A stretch of 35,876 nucleotides of DNA from a virus, in IMG/VR virus record IMGVR_UViG_3300037502_000228, positions 1 to 35,876 of that record; one strand, given 5' to 3'. A program made the translations under genes and the position numbers. The notes under the pieces are model-generated. The model made no database searches and was not told the origin of the DNA. It was given only the letters and a program-made list of their open reading frames with translations. This document shows positions 19 to 35,876 of the stretch, one piece after another (position 1 is the first letter of the stretch; the number at the start of each line of letters is the position of its first letter).

Positions 19-94
19 TGGCCCGGCTGGCAGGAATCGAACCCACATCGGACGCTTTAGAAGAGCGTTGCCTTATCCATTAGACCACAGCCGG
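19..94 (-). tRNA. tRNA-Arg (anticodon UCU)
   Basis: The minus strand folds as a full cloverleaf of 76 nt. The acceptor stem CCGGCTG/CAGCCGG is perfect and is followed by discriminator G and an encoded CCA (bases 21-19). The anticodon stem ACGCT/AGCGT closes a seven-base loop CTTCTAA, so the anticodon is TCT and the tRNA reads AGA and probably AGG. The T arm has the normal TTCGATT loop with two G-U pairs in its stem. The encoded CCA means it does not depend on host CCA addition. AGA is a common codon in the phage genes here, so the tRNA probably supplements a scarce host tRNA; that role is inferred. Confidence 0.96.
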
Positions 95-23240: not shown

Positions 23241-23516
23241 TTAAACCCCTTTTTCCTTTATTTCTAAAACCAAATCGTTTTTACCTTTGATAACTCTGTG
23301 GTATGTTTCTGCTTTAATGAAATAAGACTCACCAATTTTCAAATCTACAGGCAACTCATTATCTATCTGTAACTGCCAACTGTCACCACCAATTACTCTT
23401 ATTTCTCTATCACTCTTGTCTCTGTGCCAAATCAGTTCTTCAGTTTCTGTTTCATTACTGAATGTTCGAACGAAATGGTTTTCGCCAAGAGCAACATCTT
23501 TATATGGATTTACCAA
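23241..23516 (-). CDS. Cupin-like small protein (91 aa)
   Basis: The beta-strand order and motifs resemble a single-domain cupin: LIWHRDKSDREIRVIGGDSW has the histidine and acidic residues of the first metal box. GESYFIKAETYHRVIKGKND gives the second box with H74. Phage relatives are often of unknown function; the fold can bind a metal or sugar. It starts with TTG at 23516, and AGGAGG nine bases upstream is one of the strongest ribosome-binding sites here. That site lies inside the last codons of the 1060-aa gene. No in-frame ATG lies near. Confidence 0.7.
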   Translation of the reverse strand: MVNPYKDVALGENHFVRTFSNETETEELIWHRDKSDREIRVIGGDSWQLQIDNELPVDLKIGESYFIKAETYHRVIKGKNDLVLEIKEKGV

Positions 23517-26500
23517 TAGAAGTTACCTCCTCCTGAAAGCCCTAACTGCTTTGCATATCGTGGTGTGTTGCAAGCCCAATATGCAGCCGATGTTCTATCT
23601 TTTTGTGTTGAGCATTGATGGCGTGCGGCGAAAGATTTTCTCGCTTCTGGATCGTTCATCTTTACTGTTAGTCCAGTAGTGTCGCCCCATGTAACTTTCT
23701 TAATGTTACCTGATGATGGGTCACGCACGAACACATAGAATTTCTTAGGACCACCACGCTTTGGTTGATTCAAAGGTGGGTCTTTCTCATCTTCTTCTTT
23801 CAAATGTGCTTTAGCACCCGGTTTATTTTTTGATACAATAAACTTTGCTTTAGGATCATCTTTCTTAAAGATTTCAAGCCATTTATCTTTTGTTTCTGGT
23901 GTAACTGTTCTTTCTGATTTCCATAGACCTGATGCAGGATTATACTTCCACAGCGTCATTTCCTCTTCTTCAATCATTGGGCAGTCTAGAGGCACATGTT
24001 TGCCTTCATGTTCTACAATTTCACCAATGTCTGTTTCTTCAATTAGATGTTTGTTCAAGCCTTTGAGTTCAACACCAGACTCTCTGACTGCACGGAAGAA
24101 TTCGAAAAACTTCTCTGAGCCAAGTCTGTAGTTGTTGTCAATTAAGTCAACACCTTCAGTCAAGCAACGGTCAATTTCTTTTGCAATGTCTTCGCTAAAG
24201 TTAGACTTGACAGTTTCCATGTTTTGCTTGAAGATAGCATTTAGTGTATCATCTGCTTTGATATGATCTGCAACTTGAATTTCTGTAGTTTGCCCTGGAG
24301 TATCGTCTGCATACTTCTTGCGCAGTTCATCAGTTCCCCACTCCAGGGCTTCGATAAAATTTGAGAATTCTTCGTTCTTTTCTTTAGCACCACCAACTTT
24401 TGCGGCTAGGTCGCTGTCTGCGCCACCCCAAGTTCCTTTGCCTTTGGTGATGAATGAGTTCACTCTAGCAAATGCCCATTGCTGTGGTGTTGTACCCGGA
24501 CGATGCCCGCCCTTCCATGCGGCCATACCTCTGTCGTAAACTTTCTTTAGAATGCCGTATGGAATACCAGACTTCTCTGCTTTCTTTTTCAGCCCTTCGA
24601 CTTCTTCGAATAACTCAGCAACATCTTCATAGAGTTCGCCTAGTTCTTCTTTGTCCATATCTTTGATGCATTCATAGACTGCATCGTAACTTTCTTCACC
24701 TGAGAATTCGGCTTCGTCTTCATCGTCCTCTTCTTCTTCTGGAGGTTCTGCGTAGCCATGAAATTCTAGATAGTCTCTTGCAGTTCCAATGTAGTCAACT
24801 GCTAATGTAATCTTAGATGTTACCCATGCTTCTGGTTCCTCTTCCATGCTTTCAAGCATCATTAGAATTTCTTCAGCGTCAGCAATCAGATTGCTAAGTT
24901 CAATCTTAGCCATATACAGACCATCGGATTCTTCATCTTCCCAATCTGCTTCGTCTTCACCTTCATAGCCATCGTCTTCGTATACGAATGCTTCGTTGAA
25001 TTCTTTACCAATCAACTTGATGCCAGTCACGCCAGACACCAGTGCCCACGCTCTCTTAACATCTTTCTTTGCTAGAAGTTCTTTGAACATACCAATCTGT
25101 TCTGGTGTTGCTTTTTGGAAAAACTTAGCAAGTTCCATCATGCCGATGTTGCCTGGATATGCGGCTTCATCCAATTCTAAATCTTCACCGACATACTTTG
25201 CGTAGTCTGCTTTCATTTGTGCAACTGGCACTTTAGACAACTGACCTTTAGTTGTAGTGAACACATTGTTTGTCGTAACAATGTCAAGTAAAGTCATTAG
25301 AAGATTTTGTGTCGCATCTCTTTCAGCAGGATTCAAAGTATCGCCTGCGTCAATCTTAGTGACTGCACGTTGAATCGTAGCAAGCATTTTCTTGTCTGCT
25401 AGACCCAAACGAATCAACTGATTCAAGCGACCCATTTCTTGTTTGTCTACTGCCTCACCAAACATGTCTTTGTATTTCTTAGTGTGCTTAGACTGAGGCA
25501 TATCTCTTTCTCTCGCCTCTTTGTCGCCTGGTGCATCTTTGTACGATGATGGATCACTATCGCTCTTCTGCGCATGTGCTTTGAAGTGTGCGTCACGCTT
25601 TTCTTTGGTGTCTTTTTCTAGACCCTTATAATACTTTGCAGGTTGTGTTCCTTCTTTGCCACCAACATGTTTATCTTGTGGAAGTTTTGGTGCTTCAATG
25701 AACAACTCAAACTTCTCATTGATTTCTGCGTTGAATGACTCTTGCTGATTTGCGGCTCTCTGCGCCGCTTTGCGTTGGACTTCTGCTCTGCGTACTTGTG
25801 GTAGCAAACGTGATGCAATCTTACCCACGACTGGCATCAGTTTCTGAACCTTTTGGTCGATTGAAACTTTCTGTCCTGGCGACAAATCTGCATAACTTTT
25901 ACCTGAAGAATATCTCTGCTTCAAGAAGTTGATTGCCATACGTCTTGCTCTGCGGTTTAGAACCTCAGGGCTTGCAAAACGCTTCATCGCTCTCTGTCGT
26001 GCAACTGCAATCTTCGATTTCATTCTACGCAATTGCATCGCACGTTTTCTGCGACCTGCTAGTGAAAGAACTGCTTCGTCTAATTCTTCAGTAGCAAACT
26101 CATTCATGAAATGTTCGTTAATGTTCATGCCTTTACGCACCTCATCGAAAAGTTTTTTAGCATCGGCATCGGACAACTTAGATGGTACACCTTTGCTGAA
26201 ACTTTCAAAGTCATTCATCTCCGCAAACTTTCGCATTTTTGATCCGGACATGCCTTCTACTCCTTCTGCATCAGGGTCTCGCTCTCCTGCTGATACGATA
26301 TCGATTGAATTGAAATTGTAATCTTTGCCATTGTACTTGTTCAGTAGCGTCTTGAATTCTGGAATTCTGTCGCTACCTACAACTACAATAACATCTGAAA
26401 ATTTACCATTGAGTTCTTTGAAGACCTCAATAATGGTTCTAGCCGCCGAAGACTGCACAATGTTGCCAAATGCTTTTTTGGCAAACTTTACTTTCGTTGC

Positions 26501-26692
26501 AAAGTCTAGCGGGTCTTTTTTAGGATTGGTGCTGTGGGAAAGGTAAAGTCTTGCGGTAGCGCCTTCAGATTGGGCTACTGACTTTAGTTTGTTTGCTAGT
26601 TTCTCATGCCCATTTGTCATAGGATTCATTCTGCCGAATGACACTACGACTTTTCCACCTTTGGCTTCTAGCAAATTTTTGAATGTTTTCAT
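23510..26692 (-). CDS. 1060-aa multidomain protein with N-terminal cytidylyltransferase-like domain
   Basis: Residues 12-190 form a nucleotidyltransferase of the HxGH type: SFGRMNPMTNGHEKLANKL (T26-N-G-H29) and MSGSKMRKF (S149 to R154) match the ATP-binding signatures of cytidylyl- and NMN adenylyltransferases. A very basic helical region follows (about 205-330, with RRRARRMAINFLKQRY... patches), then acidic linkers. Next is KKVYDRGMAAWKGGHRPGTT near 740 (a DUF5824-like block). The end, YWACNTPRYAKQLGLSGGG, after FAARHQCS, resembles DUF5872. It may join enzyme and capsid-related parts in one chain; the catalytic substrate is unknown. It is the largest gene of the window. Confidence 0.8.
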   Translation of the reverse strand: MKTFKNLLEAKGGKVVVSFGRMNPMTNGHEKLANKLKSVAQSEGATARLYLSHSTNPKKDPLDFATKVKFAKKAFGNIVQSSAARTIIEVFKELNGKFSDVIVVVGSDRIPEFKTLLNKYNGKDYNFNSIDIVSAGERDPDAEGVEGMSGSKMRKFAEMNDFESFSKGVPSKLSDADAKKLFDEVRKGMNINEHFMNEFATEELDEAVLSLAGRRKRAMQLRRMKSKIAVARQRAMKRFASPEVLNRRARRMAINFLKQRYSSGKSYADLSPGQKVSIDQKVQKLMPVVGKIASRLLPQVRRAEVQRKAAQRAANQQESFNAEINEKFELFIEAPKLPQDKHVGGKEGTQPAKYYKGLEKDTKEKRDAHFKAHAQKSDSDPSSYKDAPGDKEARERDMPQSKHTKKYKDMFGEAVDKQEMGRLNQLIRLGLADKKMLATIQRAVTKIDAGDTLNPAERDATQNLLMTLLDIVTTNNVFTTTKGQLSKVPVAQMKADYAKYVGEDLELDEAAYPGNIGMMELAKFFQKATPEQIGMFKELLAKKDVKRAWALVSGVTGIKLIGKEFNEAFVYEDDGYEGEDEADWEDEESDGLYMAKIELSNLIADAEEILMMLESMEEEPEAWVTSKITLAVDYIGTARDYLEFHGYAEPPEEEEDDEDEAEFSGEESYDAVYECIKDMDKEELGELYEDVAELFEEVEGLKKKAEKSGIPYGILKKVYDRGMAAWKGGHRPGTTPQQWAFARVNSFITKGKGTWGGADSDLAAKVGGAKEKNEEFSNFIEALEWGTDELRKKYADDTPGQTTEIQVADHIKADDTLNAIFKQNMETVKSNFSEDIAKEIDRCLTEGVDLIDNNYRLGSEKFFEFFRAVRESGVELKGLNKHLIEETDIGEIVEHEGKHVPLDCPMIEEEEMTLWKYNPASGLWKSERTVTPETKDKWLEIFKKDDPKAKFIVSKNKPGAKAHLKEEDEKDPPLNQPKRGGPKKFYVFVRDPSSGNIKKVTWGDTTGLTVKMNDPEARKSFAARHQCSTQKDRTSAAYWACNTPRYAKQLGLSGGGNFYW

Positions 26693-29546: not shown

Positions 29547-29575
29547 AGTATAGCATAGGACGTTTGCCATGTCAA
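29547..29575 (-). promoter_or_regulatory. Strong sigma70-type promoter with flanking inverted repeat
   Basis: Minus-strand -35 TTGACA (29575-29570, perfect) and -10 TATACT (29552-29547, five of six) are 17 bp apart. A perfect 9-bp inverted repeat, ATGGCAAAC and GTTTGCCAT, has one arm in the spacer (29570-29562). The other arm is at the ATG of the gene (29528-29520). This looks like a two-site operator about 42 bp centre to centre. The TGA of helicase gp41 forms part of the -35 box. Confidence 0.85.
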
Positions 29576-30984
29576 GTCTTAAATCCACTAAAGTTTCTCT
29601 CCGATTTCATTCGATTGCCAAAGGAAGACTTGTCGAACATTGGCTTATCGTCTTGTTGTTGCACTTGTCCACTATCGGAAATGTCAGACTGTGCGGATGC
29701 TTCTGCATCGTAGAGTTTCATCTTGCCTCTGTCAACACCAATGACAAATCGCTTGTTTGTGTCTGGACTGTTATAGCGATTCTTCAACTGCTTGACCATG
29801 ATTTGGTTTAGATCATTCAGTTCTTCAGTCGCAATCAAAGCAAACATGAAGTCTGCTGTTGCTGGAAGACCAAACGATTCTGAAGTGTCAGTCAAGTCAA
29901 CGTCAGAGTTAGAATAGCCGCTTCGTGTAGTCTGAGTTGCAGAGATTACTGGCACAGCATACTCAACTGCAAGACCACGAAGTTCTTCAGCAATCGCTTT
30001 GATGTATGTGTATGAGTTGACGTTAGCGCCTGGCTTGATGCGTGATGACGAACAGATGTTCAGATAGTCAATGTAGATAACATCAGGAGAAAACTGACGC
30101 TTCAAACGCAATTCATTCAGTAGATGCTTGAAGTGTCCTACGTTTGCCGATGCAGTTGGATACTCTTTGATGATCAACTTACCCATCGTCTTTTCTTTGA
30201 TGCGTTCAATCTTTTTCATGTAAGATTCTTTTGGCATCACATTCAACTTGTCGATATCGATGTTCATAAGATTTGCATCGATACGTTCAGCAATACGCTC
30301 TTCAGACATTTCTAGCGTGATGTACAAAACATTCTTGCCAAGCGATAGATTGGCAGCGGCACAATGACACATGAACAAAGACTTACCAACACCAGTGCCG
30401 GCAAGAATGATGTTCAGAGTTTTGATTGGGAGACCGCCTTTGGTGATGCGGTTGAAGTAGTCCAAATCAAACGGGAGTCTTTTCTCAATTCGATGGTAGA
30501 ATTCGTATCGACTCTCAGCGTCATCCACGAAATCATGACCAACGTGATTATCAAAAGAAACAGCAAGCGCATCGGATAGAATAGTCGGAATCGACCCCTT
30601 GTCTAGTTTAGTAGCCTTACCATCAAGAATGTTGATGGACTCCATGATAGCATTGTAGACTGCTTTCTCTTGACAAAACTTCTCAGTCTCATCTAGCAAC
30701 CACTCTGCGTCTTTCTTATTAAACTCTGAAGACTTGATATCTTCAAGTGTCGAAACAACTTTCTTGTATTCTGTGTCGTTAAGGTTTTCCTTTTTCTCAA
30801 GGTCAATCTCTAGTGACTCATGTGTAGGCAAAGCATTGTATTTTGTGATGTACTCTGAGATTTGTTCAAATAGAACCTTCTCTGCTTTGTCGGTGAAATA
30901 ATCTGAACGGAGGAACGGAATAATCTTTCGTGTGTAGTCCTCATCATTCAGGAGATGTTTCAGAATCTTCTTTTCTATGCTCAT
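29572..30984 (-). CDS. 41: Replicative DNA helicase, T4 gp41-like (DnaB family)
   Basis: A RecA-type ATPase with Walker A GTGVGKS (196-202) in LNIILAGTGVGKSLF is present. Walker B lies in DVIYIDYLNICSS (near 300), and the GYSNSDVDLTDTSES region (near 362-376) supports a DnaB-like hexameric helicase. The N-terminal 140 residues form the primase-interaction domain. It unwinds DNA 5'-3' at the fork together with the primase encoded at 14807-15835. At 470 aa it matches T4 gp41 (475). Its TGA stop overlaps the -35 box of the next promoter. AAGG seven bases upstream supports the ATG. Confidence 0.94.
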   Translation of the reverse strand: MSIEKKILKHLLNDEDYTRKIIPFLRSDYFTDKAEKVLFEQISEYITKYNALPTHESLEIDLEKKENLNDTEYKKVVSTLEDIKSSEFNKKDAEWLLDETEKFCQEKAVYNAIMESINILDGKATKLDKGSIPTILSDALAVSFDNHVGHDFVDDAESRYEFYHRIEKRLPFDLDYFNRITKGGLPIKTLNIILAGTGVGKSLFMCHCAAANLSLGKNVLYITLEMSEERIAERIDANLMNIDIDKLNVMPKESYMKKIERIKEKTMGKLIIKEYPTASANVGHFKHLLNELRLKRQFSPDVIYIDYLNICSSSRIKPGANVNSYTYIKAIAEELRGLAVEYAVPVISATQTTRSGYSNSDVDLTDTSESFGLPATADFMFALIATEELNDLNQIMVKQLKNRYNSPDTNKRFVIGVDRGKMKLYDAEASAQSDISDSGQVQQQDDKPMFDKSSFGNRMKSERNFSGFKT

Positions 30985-31273
30985 TCATGTACCTTTTTTC
31001 TGCTTCAGCCAATGCATCATATAGTATATCATTAAGAATCTCTTCCAGCAAGAGTTCGAACCTCTCTTTTACCTCTGGCGTTTTCTCTATGTCTTCGTTG
31101 TCATGAATGCGATAGTCAAATGATATGGTAGCAGAATCTGCACTCTCATTGACGCTAATTGTACCAAAGGTAAATTCAACTCCATCAAATTCACCTTCGT
31201 CTGTTACGACTACTGTAGCAACGTCTTCTGGCTTTGTGTAGTCGCTGGTGTCGATAAATTTATACTTCTTCAT
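30944..31273 (-). CDS. Small acidic protein after uvsX (109 aa)
   Basis: The protein [20 protein letters not shown] has a beta-rich half ([37 protein letters not shown]) and a helical acidic end ([20 protein letters not shown]). No motif gives a function. The ATG at 31273 has GAGGAG seven bases upstream, inside the last codons of uvsX, and overlaps that gene by 14 bp. The longer frame to 31351 is not supported. It also overlaps the gp41 gene by 41 bp, so the three genes are tightly coupled; a role in recombination is possible. Confidence 0.75.
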
Positions 31274-32327
31274 CTGCCAACTCCTCAGATTCGGAATCGC
31301 TTTGTGCACCTTCTTGTCCGTACAAGAATTCTTTCTTGCAGGCATCGTCAATCAAAGCCAATAAGTCATTCGTCCAATACTTTTCTGGTTCATCGTTGAT
31401 GCTTTTTCCAAAGACTTTTGTTCCGTCTGGAAGTTCGTATCGTGTGGAGACTTTCTTGATGATGTTGTATTTTTCTGCAATCTCCAAGAGTCCATAGTAT
31501 CGATCCAGTCCCTTGTCGTAGGTGATTTTGACTTCCACATTTTTGTTTTCCTTAGTCAATCGGCTCTTGTAGAGTTTAGCCTTTACGATGTTACCAATCA
31601 CCTCAGTACCGTCTTTGTCTTTCTTCTTAGACAGGTAAACGATTGTCGATGCGGTGTACTTTAAGCCAGAGCCTCCAGACATTTCTTTTGTCGGAATGTA
31701 TGCACCAACAACATCGTAAACGTGATTCGTTACAATCAATGGCACGTTAATCTTCGCAAGTTTCAAGTTCAACACACGGAAGGTTGCTTTAAGTGTAGCA
31801 CTCTTCGTCATGTCTTTTGTTTCTTTGCCTTCTGCGGTGTCTTCCATTTCTTTAGTAGAAGACAATTGGCCCATAGAGTCAAGCACCATCATCATAGGTT
31901 TACGTTTTGCTTCTGGCTGTGCAGAATACTTTTCAATAATCTGTAGCGCAGTATGACGAAACTTCTGAATCGTATCAGGCTCAGAGATAACAACACGCTT
32001 GGTGTCTACGCCTCTGCTCTCCATCATTGCTTTTGTAACTGCGGCTTCAGTATCAAAGTAGATAACGCCGCCTTCTGGATTGTCATCAAGAAATTGCTTG
32101 ACAACACCTAGAACAAAGAAAGTTTTGCCTGTAGCAGATTCACCTGCGAATGCTGTTACCTTATTGTTAGGTACGCCCCCATAGATACTGCCACTAAGCA
32201 AAGCATTAAGAGCATACGAACCAGTATCGATACAGCCGCTATACTCAGCGGATGCTGTACCATCTGCCAAAATCTTTGTGTCTTCATCTTTTAATTGTTC
32301 AACTAAATCTGTAAAAAAATTACCCAT
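31260..32327 (-). CDS. uvsX: UvsX recombinase (RecA-like)
   Basis: The RecA core is clear: Walker A GESATGKT (62-69) in [31 protein letters not shown] (near 86) with the catalytic glutamate, and [14 protein letters not shown] (Walker B, near 140). The L2/DNA-binding side follows with [16 protein letters not shown]-type residues and [17 protein letters not shown] (near 207). It polymerises on ssDNA and drives strand exchange and recombination-dependent replication. Start 32327 is chosen because GAGGTG lies before this ATG; the frame extends to 32396 without a better start. The acidic tail ([13 protein letters not shown]) is typical of UvsX. Confidence 0.95.
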
Positions 32328-32343
32328 AATCACCTCACTAAGT

Positions 32344-33252
32344 TTACATAGAGTCCTGATCTCTATGATATAATTTTGTTGCGTTGACGATTTCATCCTT
32401 GTTCATAGGAATCGGTTCAACAGAAGTCATGTTAATGTCAGTCTCTTTCATTTTAGGCTCAGGTGCCACTTCAACTTTAGGTTGTTCTGGTTCTTCTTTT
32501 CTCTTTAACTGAGAAAGGTTATAGTTACCAGCAATAACCATCAAGACTGCTAACGGATCAAATACTAACACTAATAGTATTATAACAAATCTTACAGCAG
32601 AATCCAAGTGATTCTTTGCTTCTTCACCATAAATTAGTTCGGCAATGTATTTCAGCGGACCAACTTCTGCCTCCACTTTACGAACTTCTGCACGGAGAGG
32701 CGCAGACTCTTCACCAAGGGCAACAATGGTTTTCTGATTAGATTCGATTTCTTTTGCTAGAGAATTTCTGTCGCCGGCTTGACTTCTACGGATTGTGTTT
32801 GCTCTAGCGGCACCTTGCTCTGTGGTGCTTCTTGCCATGACTTGATCGACTGCCTCATCCATCTGTTTGAGTTGACGGCGTGCGACTTCGATATTATCTC
32901 TTGCCGTTCTAATCTTTTCATCATATACCGCCACCTTCGTTGCAATCTCTGATGTGGAAGAAGTTTGATCAATGTGTGCTTTGGAAAGATAACCGAAGAT
33001 ACCAAGAGAGGTAATCAACATCAACACCACAACGGCTGAAGTAAAATAGTACTTCAACATGCGTGGCGCATCTTGCCAATTGCGATACAACCAACTTGCG
33101 GTTACAAGTTTTGCAACCTCAAGCGAACCGCCCATGATAGCGATTGGTATAGGTGCTGAAGCAAAGATTGCAATCAGACCTACGATAGAATAATACGCCG
33201 CAATGGCGGATAGGCCAAATGCGGTAAGAAACAATAGAACAATGAAGAACAT
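32344..33252 (-). CDS. Membrane protein with long coiled coil (302 aa)
   Basis: Three or four hydrophobic segments are visible: [40 protein letters not shown] (about 24-43), [20 protein letters not shown] (about 72-91) and [20 protein letters not shown] (about 222-241). A coiled coil of about 110 residues (about 100-210) lies between the last two and faces one side of the membrane. A charged tail follows ([20 protein letters not shown]). Homologous proteins occur in T4-like marine phages without a known role. A membrane protein between polymerase and UvsX is unusual and may tether replication to the envelope; this is speculation. Confidence 0.75.
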
Positions 33253-33656
33253 TAGGTACCTCTAGTCAACGCCAGTATCTTATCTATCTGTTCTTGAATT
33301 TTCTCTTTACGATTAGGCCAATAGATATACTCTTTGTCCGTGTTCTTCATCAGATTTACCAACAACGGCATAATCAACTTTTCCAATTCAGTCAATCTAG
33401 ATTTTACACTATCTTCCAATTGAACACGTTTAGATTCAAGACCAAACTTCTCTTGGTTGTATAGTTCCAACATCATATCAATTTTTGACTCTAGGCGTGA
33501 AATGCTTTCGCTTGACGCTGATACTGTTTCTTTGATGACCTTAGTCTCCATATTTGTCTCATCGACAACCTGTTTGACTTCCATTTCATCAATTGCGCTG
33601 AAACCAAAATCTTCTTGCGATCTTGGCAACAGATACTCTTGTGGGATTGTACTCAT
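33252..33656 (-). CDS. Coiled-coil protein (134 aa)
   Basis: A nearly all-helical protein with a flexible N-terminus (MSTIPQEYLLPRSQEDFGFS) and heptad-rich sections (SSESISRLESKIDMMLELYN and RVQLEDSVKSRLTELEKLIM). No enzymatic motif is seen. The ATG overlaps the stop of the polymerase C-part by 4 bp, and its stop overlaps the next gene by one base, so it is translationally linked to both. The coiled coils could mediate self-association or contact the coiled coil of the next protein, but there is no direct evidence. Confidence 0.75.
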   Translation of the reverse strand: MSTIPQEYLLPRSQEDFGFSAIDEMEVKQVVDETNMETKVIKETVSASSESISRLESKIDMMLELYNQEKFGLESKRVQLEDSVKSRLTELEKLIMPLLVNLMKNTDKEYIYWPNRKEKIQEQIDKILALTRGT

Positions 33657-34744
33657 ACGAAGAAACTCTCCAATGATGATTTCTTTTCTACACTCCAGCC
33701 AAATGTGTCTACAATAATTTTGAGCGGTTCAAGATATGCTTTCTCAAATTGCAAATCGTAGTCGATGTACTTCTCAAGCCCAAACTCTTTTGGTAACACA
33801 GTCATGCAAGAGAATACGTTTTCCTGCATTGGGTTTGGTACTTTCATGTAGCAAAACTTGATCTTGTCGCCGTCTTTGATTGGCTGGTACTTTTTTGTCA
33901 ACTTCTTCACATTCAACATGTGATTGTACATAATAGCACCACGAACGTGAATTGGTGTGCCTTTCTTGTACATGCTGACTCTATCCGTATATTTAGACAG
34001 TTCTGAAACGCCTCTAGGAAAAGCAACGTCCGTAAATGGTAGCGTATAGAATTCTTCACGGAAGTTTGCAATGAACGATTGAAGTTCATACTCTGTGCCT
34101 GTCATCACAATCTTCAATGCTTCTTTAATCTTTTCACGACATGCCATGGGTGTGGAAGACTTGACTGCTTCAATACCAGACATTTTTAGTTTTGGTTCGT
34201 TATAACGAACACCTTCTGAGTCCCATACGTTAAGAATATAACGCTTCTTTGCAGTCCAGATGCCTTTGTCTGCGATAACTTCTCGCTTCATCTGCATCTT
34301 CTGCGCATAAGCATTCATGTAGTCTGCTAGTTCTTGATACGCCTTGTCAATAAACGGCTCAATCTTTTCTTGGCAGGCTTTGTCGATAAAGTCAACAATC
34401 TTCTCTTTCGGAGGATTCTTCGATCCGTAGACCATATCCACCAGCGGACCAAGATGGAGGTATACAGAATCCGTATCTGACGCAATAACATAATCTACAC
34501 CTTCAGTCTTCAATAATTTATTCATGTATTGGTTGAGTTTCATTCCGATCCATCGAATACTCAATTGACCAGAATAGGTAATGGCTTCTGCTTGGCGCAA
34601 GTCAAAGAACCGAAAGTATTCATTGCCAAGGGCGCCATAAGCGGAGTTCAATTGAACCTTCTTTGCAAGTTGAAGGTTCTTGTAACGTGAGATATCTTTC
34701 AGTAGTTGTTCTTTTTTGAGCAACAATTGTTCTTTTTCAGACAT
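33653..34744 (-). CDS. 43B: Split DNA polymerase, C-terminal part (fingers second helix, palm, thumb)
   Basis: The protein starts at the tip of the fingers domain: the first 25 residues (with KEQLLLKKEQLLKDISRYKN) form the second fingers helix. Family B motif B follows, K29-x3-NSAYG in KKVQLNSAYGALGNEYFRF. Motif C carries D90-T-D92 (YVIASDTDSVYLHL). KKRYILNVWDSEGVRYNEPK and a thumb domain follow, and the end SSLESFFV resembles the clamp-binding tail of T4 gp43 (gp45 contact). Motif A is encoded by the other part (35243 to beyond the window). The start overlaps the oxygenase stop by 8 bp. No good Shine-Dalgarno is seen, so it depends on translational coupling. Confidence 0.94.
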   Translation of the reverse strand: MSEKEQLLLKKEQLLKDISRYKNLQLAKKVQLNSAYGALGNEYFRFFDLRQAEAITYSGQLSIRWIGMKLNQYMNKLLKTEGVDYVIASDTDSVYLHLGPLVDMVYGSKNPPKEKIVDFIDKACQEKIEPFIDKAYQELADYMNAYAQKMQMKREVIADKGIWTAKKRYILNVWDSEGVRYNEPKLKMSGIEAVKSSTPMACREKIKEALKIVMTGTEYELQSFIANFREEFYTLPFTDVAFPRGVSELSKYTDRVSMYKKGTPIHVRGAIMYNHMLNVKKLTKKYQPIKDGDKIKFCYMKVPNPMQENVFSCMTVLPKEFGLEKYIDYDLQFEKAYLEPLKIIVDTFGWSVEKKSSLESFFV

Positions 34745-35246
34745 AATGGAAGTAAGTGCTTGCTATGTATTTGGTAGTTTTTGTAGGCATTAGACCCTCA
34801 TGTGGAAATAACCACATCGGAGGAAACACTAGTATGTTACCACATTTTGCATCAAAAGTAAAGTGTCCTTCTGGTGTATAAAATTTTGTACCAGCATCAC
34901 TATCATTGAAGTACATTAGAAATGCGAGATAGCGTGTGCAGTTACCAGCATGTCCAACGTCAACGTGTAAAGGAAAACTATGCGTGTTTGGTTTGTATCT
35001 CTTCATTCTGATGGCTTCAATCTTTCGATTTTGCGGCATCATCTTCATCGGATCATAAAACCTGCCATAGTGTTCTGCTAAGTCTTTACATATAGCAATC
35101 AGATCATGCGACTCATCTTCCCAATGGCGAATCTCCAATTGGTCAAACATCTCATAACTTTTATCAAGTTCAGGTTCGCTCTCAAATTTATCAATCATGT
35201 AGTCGCAGAAACTTTTGGGCAAAACATTTTCATACATCTGCATCAT
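34737..35246 (-). CDS. 2OG-Fe(II) oxygenase (prolyl-4-hydroxylase-like) between the polymerase halves
   Basis: The iron facial triad of the family is visible: H94-x-D96 in SFPLHVDVGHA and H149 in FPHEG. K159 in TTKYIAS is ten residues after H149, where prolyl-4-hydroxylases place the lysine that binds 2-oxoglutarate. The core strand ILVFPPMWLFPHEG and TRYLAFLMYFND are typical of the P4H fold. The substrate may be a protein, nucleic acid or free metabolite. At 169 aa it is a complete single domain. It overlaps 43A by 4 bp (ATGA) and 43B by 8 bp, so all three belong to one transcript; it is not a homing endonuclease. Confidence 0.88.
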   Translation of the reverse strand: MMQMYENVLPKSFCDYMIDKFESEPELDKSYEMFDQLEIRHWEDESHDLIAICKDLAEHYGRFYDPMKMMPQNRKIEAIRMKRYKPNTHSFPLHVDVGHAGNCTRYLAFLMYFNDSDAGTKFYTPEGHFTFDAKCGNILVFPPMWLFPHEGLMPTKTTKYIASTYFHYV

Positions 35247-35876
35247 AGTTGTGCTAACCTTTCATTCACTTTCTCTAGTTCTTTTTGTGCTTGAATCATT
35301 TTCTTTTTGTACACCGTGCGGTCTTCGTACATTCTCTCCATCATCGCTGGCAGAAAGCCTTGAACGTCACGCCTGAAGAAATGACCGTTGGCTGCCATGC
35401 AATGTTCGCCGTCAGGCTCATATTCGCTGTTCAGCAAATTATCGATAGAGATTGATTTGTGTTTGCCGTCAACGATTGTTTCAGGTGAAACATTATACTG
35501 CATAATCAAATGCGGATACAGACTGTTCAAGTCAAACGAAACAACCCAATCGTGTTTGCCAACGATAGGGTCTTTCACATATGCACCCTCATACTTTTCA
35601 TCTTTGTGTGAAGTTTTTTTCTGCGGCACAACAATCTTCTGCTTGATCAAATGATTGTGTGTCAGAGTATCCCACATGCGTACTTGCGTGAATACGTCAG
35701 TCAAATTCACTTTGGCGTCATATGCAAGAGCAAGCACCATATCGATGAATTTCATCTTGTCATCAAGTTTGTCAACAAGGTCAACGTCTTTGATGTTATA
35801 GTCAATGAACTTCTGATAATCTAATTTATACAACTGATGCAAGTTCTCAAACTCAGAATAATCTAACTTCTTCTCA
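35243..35876 (-). CDS. 43A: Split DNA polymerase, N-terminal part (43A), partial at window edge
   Basis: The last 210 codons of the first polymerase part lie in the window; the gene runs on beyond base 35876. Visible parts are the end of the exonuclease region (FIDYNIKDVDLVDKL) and palm motif A, WVVSFDLNSLYPHLIMQYN. The first fingers helix follows (YEDRTVYKKKMIQAQKELEK), and the protein ends NERLAQL. In T4 gp43 the corresponding chain continues through the fingers tip. The stop overlaps the ATG of the oxygenase (ATGA). The exonuclease catalytic residues lie outside the window and cannot be checked. Confidence 0.95.
   Translation of the reverse strand, partial: EKKLDYSEFENLHQLYKLDYQKFIDYNIKDVDLVDKLDDKMKFIDMVLALAYDAKVNLTDVFTQVRMWDTLTHNHLIKQKIVVPQKKTSHKDEKYEGAYVKDPIVGKHDWVVSFDLNSLYPHLIMQYNVSPETIVDGKHKSISIDNLLNSEYEPDGEHCMAANGHFFRRDVQGFLPAMMERMYEDRTVYKKKMIQAQKELEKVNERLAQL

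Follow-up and report, generated by a model that had tools for sequence, protein, structure and literature searches.

How a replicative DNA polymerase, among the most constrained of phage enzymes, comes to be encoded in two pieces with a complete oxygenase gene between them is the question raised by this locus. The stretch of DNA analysed (the window) is an IMG/VR virus contig of metagenomic origin, 35,876 bases long. On its minus strand three overlapping frames follow each other: 43A, the N-terminal chain of a family B polymerase (35243-35876, the frame being open to 35875); a complete prolyl-4-hydroxylase (P4H)-like 2OG-Fe(II) oxygenase of 169 aa (34737-35246); and 43B, the C-terminal polymerase chain of 363 aa (33653-34744). 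The 43A stop and the oxygenase start share an ATGA (4 bp, 35243-35246, minus strand), and the oxygenase stop shares the 8 bp ATGTCTGA with the start of 43B (34737-34744, minus strand). A preliminary description of this DNA had given the coordinates of the two polymerase genes and the lengths of both overlaps correctly. As set out below, the polymerase gene of many uncultured T4-like viruses from water is cut at one exact spot, which behaves as a swappable gene slot.

The divided polymerase

Both chains match the Pfam profile DNA_pol_B (43A at 3.6e-19), and in PHROG 43A is assigned to phrog_2062 (8.8e-74) and 43B to phrog_1918 (6.4e-144). These two families mirror the halves of the window: phrog_2062, with 502 positions, stops at the break and phrog_1918, with 382 positions, begins there. 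In the window 43A comprises the end of the exonuclease domain, palm motif A and the first fingers helix, and 43B comprises the second fingers helix, motif B, motif C (DTDS), the thumb and a C-terminal SSLxxFF. The separation of motif A (SFDLNSLYP) from motifs B and C (KKVQLNSAYG and SDTDS), which had been noticed before, is thus confirmed, and the motif set of the T4 gp43 type is complete (DxxSLYP in 43A, KxxxNSxYG and DTDS in 43B). About 270 N-terminal residues of 43A are missing because the record ends at 35,876 bases. A relative (L100) has the full 43A of 480 aa, which matches phrog_262 over residues 1-474 and contains DIE, the GWNIQFFD region and YNIKD; the 3'-5' exonuclease domain is present, its end in the window and the whole part in this relative. 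A second polymerase was sought in a 143-kb and a 113-kb relative, both probably incomplete, and none was found.

When the chains are mapped onto RB69 gp43, R186 and K190 of 43A correspond to R482 and K486, the last aligned 43A residue (207) corresponds to 503, and K29, N33 and Y36 of 43B correspond to K560, N564 and Y567. The break therefore falls between about 506 and 532, in the loop joining the two fingers helices. This mapping and an alignment with the polymerase of phage 44RR agree with the earlier proposal of a break at the fingers tip that leaves one helix to each chain. Both helices are lengthened: 43A has a tail of 24 residues past the R482 equivalent, followed by the stop codon (35243-35317, minus strand), and 43B has a head of 28 residues ahead of motif B (34661-34744, minus strand). 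In an AF2 model of 43B alone this head lies in a long N-terminal helix (residues 3-43), and the model is uncertain at 20-57 and 145-193, which is expected if the two chains complete each other.

The lengthening is a property of the split polymerases in general. Summed over both chains, the segment separating the R482 equivalent and motif B has 49-53 residues in nearly all split loci, with any cargo; the exceptions are L273 with 42, a value that depends on which start codon is chosen, and L285 with 73. In the 117 continuous polymerases counted it has 36-42 residues, one outlier being taken as a pattern-matching error, so that the fingers segment is about 12 residues longer in split than in uninterrupted polymerases, whatever the cargo. 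Nearly all split loci have a 43A tail of 22-26 aa (L285 has 46), and in both tails leucine, isoleucine and valine show, as read by eye, the spacing typical of coiled coils. These lengthened and conserved tails look like ready parts for a two-piece polymerase.

The oxygenase and other occupants of the break

The middle gene matches 2OG-FeII_Oxy_3 (PF13640) above the cut-off and phrog_61 at 7.6e-27. Its iron triad and 2OG residue (H94, D96, H149 and K159) are identical in 22 out of 22 in-break copies, which bears out the claim of a complete prolyl-4-hydroxylase-like oxygenase with an intact HxD...H...K in the gap. Its AF2 model has a pLDDT of 93.6, and Foldseek finds P4H and PHD2 (TM up to about 0.8), with which it shares the double-stranded beta-helix and the HxD...H...K residues at an identity of about 12-18% among the structural matches listed. 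Judged by sequence and model, it is a separate, selected enzyme of the P4H type with predicted hydroxylase activity, and it more likely acts on a protein of the phage or host, or in nucleic acid repair, than on the polymerase. The PHROG labels "DNA endonuclease" and "endonuclease V" (2297, 274) also match this gene (34737-35246) as well as L264:2167-2733; these labels look wrong.

An AAAGG lies about 11 bases upstream of the oxygenase start in the window, and most relatives have an AAGGA about 7 bases ahead of it, in both cases within 43A codons. Before the 43B start a Shine-Dalgarno-like sequence was sought and none was found. As 43B starts on the oxygenase stop and lacks a ribosome signal of its own, it is probably translated by ribosomes that re-initiate at the end of the oxygenase gene.

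In a plain search the window oxygenase as query retrieved nothing from IMG/VR, and an alignment of five oxygenase copies retrieved 80 loci. In 21 other IMG/VR contigs, which come from 19 datasets, 43A, oxygenase and 43B follow each other with the overlaps seen in the window; the total of 22 contigs includes two (L103, L104) that each show one side of the break only. In these relatives the in-break oxygenases are 55-69% identical to the window copy and the polymerase chains about 71-81% identical to those of the window. With dN/dS values of about 0.03-0.2, 43A, the oxygenase and 43B are all under purifying selection. The arrangement is real and old. One contig with a frame slip in 43B (L094) was not relied on, and a single scan of a bacterial and archaeal genome collection found no split polymerase that carried an oxygenase.

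Among 234 loci with a readable junction, 172 polymerases are continuous and 62 interrupted. The window type of oxygenase occupies 20 of the 62 breaks, or 22 when the two partial contigs are counted. A second oxygenase lineage is found in two (L182 and L266; the L182 copy is 42% identical to that of the window), and a small DUF6948-like gene of about 90 aa in 25, to which a third oxygenase type is added in L263 and L264. Eight contigs are empty, the 43A and 43B frames overlapping directly without an insert. The DUF6948-like gene is accompanied in L181 (2210-3004) by a membrane protein that normally lies 3' of the polymerase, and in L253 (1786-2328) a weakly matching homing-endonuclease-like ORF (phrog_314, 3e-07) shares one break with the small cargo gene; L253 is a possible intermediate. 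The remaining interrupted loci are reference phages, L135 and L136, and L061, which was discarded as a split and taken as a probable indel (gap near 0, truncated A frame). The small cargo gene had by eye been thought to be Sm-like; this was dropped, and its naming rests on weak DUF6948 and phrog_527 matches only. The oxygenase is hence one among several genes that occupy a reusable slot, and the idea that it is the gene that split the polymerase did not hold, since this split allele, lengthened helices included, is also seen without insert and with other genes.

Movement of the split allele

Two closely related contigs differ in the presence of the split. On the 43A side the DNA of L084 (split, with oxygenase) and L193 (continuous) is 88.6% identical as far as a point 33 bases short of the 43A stop, and on the other side the identity is 87.4% from about codon 19 of 43B onward; between these flanks 592 bp with the oxygenase stand against 54 bp without it, and they show no similarity. 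The difference can be either a gain in L084 or a loss in L193. The cargo differs in another pair, L266 with an oxygenase and L262 with the small gene, which are 78-82% identical on both sides of the break.

In polymerase trees built without the junction columns, a single-clade origin of the oxygenase-split polymerase is rejected by the AU test: the polymerases with the window-type oxygenase do not form one clade (p = 0.009, and 3e-05 with L193 included), and neither do all split polymerases together (p = 0.02). The oxygenases form one supported group, which also holds a freestanding copy from L086; the in-break copies as a clade on their own are not rejected (p = 0.31), and the L086 copy falls inside. 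This copy (L086:5001-5510) is 64% identical and shares 4 bp with the 88-aa gene upstream of it, and the polymerase in the same record is continuous.

A source of the cargo is suggested by the surrounding replication cluster. Downstream of the polymerase the window encodes a tetraspanin/DUF4407-like membrane protein (32344-33252), whose homologue is the one inside the L181 break, a UvsX-like recombinase (31260-32396; Pfam, PHROG) and a DnaB-like, gp41-like replicative helicase (29572-30984; PHROG), all on the minus strand. In the fetched loci with a continuous polymerase, oxygenase homologues lie downstream in 23 of 23 cases, membrane-protein homologues in 55 of 56 and homologues of the third oxygenase in six of seven, the seventh (L189) starting at the polymerase gene end. 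T4-like cyanophages have 2OG-Fe(II) oxygenases in the same cluster, with the same phrog_61 assignment and catalytic residues at about 33-34% identity. These sit between uvsX and gp41, downstream of an uninterrupted polymerase, and a role in DNA repair has been proposed for them (PMC3037559, PMC2984593). Between the gp41-like helicase and uvsX of the window we found no oxygenase. The downstream homologues, the cyanophage position and its vacancy in the window together suggest movement within the replication cluster.

Reassembly, origin of the break and known systems

The precedent to which the preliminary description had pointed, split gene 43 of Aeromonas phages, is real and lies at the same place: phages 25 and 44RR also have a T4-type family B polymerase in two chains with a break at the fingers tip, and the split 43A and 43B of phage 25 are described as co-purifying and polymerising (Petrov et al. 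2010, reviewed in PMC2988022). The break of 44RR holds a 49-bp spacer and that of phage 25 a homing endonuclease; neither contains an oxygenase, and their tails are longer and unrelated in sequence to those found here. In the window break the homing endonuclease or untranslated spacer of the Aeromonas type is absent and, as had been stated, the oxygenase alone fills the gap.

The reading that we favour, at a probability of about 0.7, is that the two chains reassemble, that the break is a tolerated slot exchanged by recombination and that the oxygenase is a translationally coupled passenger. By analogy with phage 25, and in line with the conservation of both chains, the replicative polymerase would be made as two chains rejoining at the fingers, with 43A supplying the exonuclease, motif A and helix N, and 43B supplying helix P, motifs B and C and the thumb. 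Residue patterns and the single-chain model suggest that the lengthened helices probably form a short antiparallel coiled coil which replaces the lost loop. The allele, consisting of long tail, cargo or none, and long head, would be gained or lost by recombination in the conserved polymerase sequence on both sides. Within the slot the cargo is exchanged, as the relatives show, presumably by a similar route; the oxygenase probably moved in from the replication cluster, and the slot may originally have been opened by a homing endonuclease, as phage 25 and the weak L253 match hint. The overlaps, which place the oxygenase start on the 43A stop and the 43B start on the oxygenase stop, would then couple translation of the three frames. 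The fingers tip of so constrained an enzyme nonetheless appears to be filled, emptied and refilled as a gene slot. The natural series of polymerases that are continuous, split and empty, or split with varied cargo makes it testable how a polymerase functions with its nucleotide-binding pocket shared between two chains, how split genes originate without splicing and whether an essential gene serves as an anchor holding accessory genes.

Other explanations put more weight on the insert or on the origin of the break. An endonuclease could have split the gene at the fingers tip and later been replaced by accessory genes riding occasional endonuclease-driven conversion. A GIY-YIG-type endonuclease at this place in phage 25, the endonuclease-like ORF and small gene sharing the L253 break, and homing-endonuclease-like inserts after motif A, a second interruption site of gp43 (L014:4000-5060, L048:2800-3800, L072:1500-2560), all speak for such a scar. 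However, no oxygenase-bearing break holds an endonuclease, a GIY-YIG gene was found in only one of the four in-break oxygenase records searched, away from the polymerase and not enriched, and simple frame overlap could yield the empty splits. We regard this history as possible though doubtful; it concerns the origin of the break and is compatible with reassembly around an exchangeable slot. The oxygenase could instead be functionally tied to the polymerase: it might hydroxylate the fingers, be a third subunit or help the chains to assemble, and replication would then respond to oxygen, iron or 2-oxoglutarate. The tight coupling of three frames kept in 22 contigs, all with one oxygenase group, and the entry of three different oxygenase types into the same break argue in this direction. 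Against it, lengthened split fingers also occur empty or with a non-oxygenase gene, the freestanding L086 oxygenase lies in a record with a continuous polymerase, and the in-break tails contain no proline among the loci listed. A functional tie is therefore unlikely, and we consider it quite improbable that the oxygenase is a working polymerase part tuning phage replication by oxygen, iron or 2-oxoglutarate, with the three oxygenase types reflecting convergence and not chance.

Rejoining of the polymerase by RNA or protein splicing, with the oxygenase inside an intron or intein, has parallels in phage polymerase genes (the 43B intron of phage 25, the split intein of MIJ3). It is nevertheless very improbable here, as an Rfam scan of the window gave no intron, the Pfam matches of the window proteins include no intein (Hint) domain, the overlaps of 4 and 8 bp leave no space for splicing elements, and stop and start are conserved. 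That the window is a metagenomic record could raise the suspicion of an assembly artefact, or else of a decaying gene. The oxygenase frame as an assembly chimera had been named as a danger, and the search of viromes for the gene order, proposed at the same time, settles the matter: with 21 further diverged contigs, purifying selection and intact catalytic residues, artefact or decay is hardly conceivable.

Split polymerase genes with small ORFs in the break are already known or public; what appears new here is the oxygenase and the exchangeable slot. Deposited records of cyanophage ACG-2014f and Acinetobacter phage MD-2021a have two polymerase ORFs with a fingers-tip break and ORFs between them, and ACG-2014f also has an ATGA junction, but the ORFs in the break are small and unknown, two in ACG-2014f and six in MD-2021a, and none is an oxygenase. 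In the OM43 phages MEP401 and MEP402 the polymerase gene is split, with a small unknown ORF between the parts; according to PMC10580990 these phages are related to Zobellviridae and not T4-like, and no oxygenase in the break is reported there. In the phage collection no record covers 80% of the three-gene stretch of the window, and the isolate oxygenases that come closest share less than 40% identity; among the matches listed, none lies between polymerase halves. In line with the earlier suggestion that an oxygenase in the break had not been described, neither this nor exchangeable cargo in a gp43 break was found in the isolates searched or in open-licence papers.

Some further features were seen in these records. 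In ACG-2014f (L165:4464-5028), and likewise in L135 and L136, no ATG precedes motif B in the 43B frame, and a protein begun at the annotated 43B start of ACG-2014f would lack motif B. The window also carries a tRNA gene (22-94, minus strand) and, at 23510-26692, an ORF of 1060 aa whose N-terminus is cytidyltransferase-like and which has other, weak matches to protein families.
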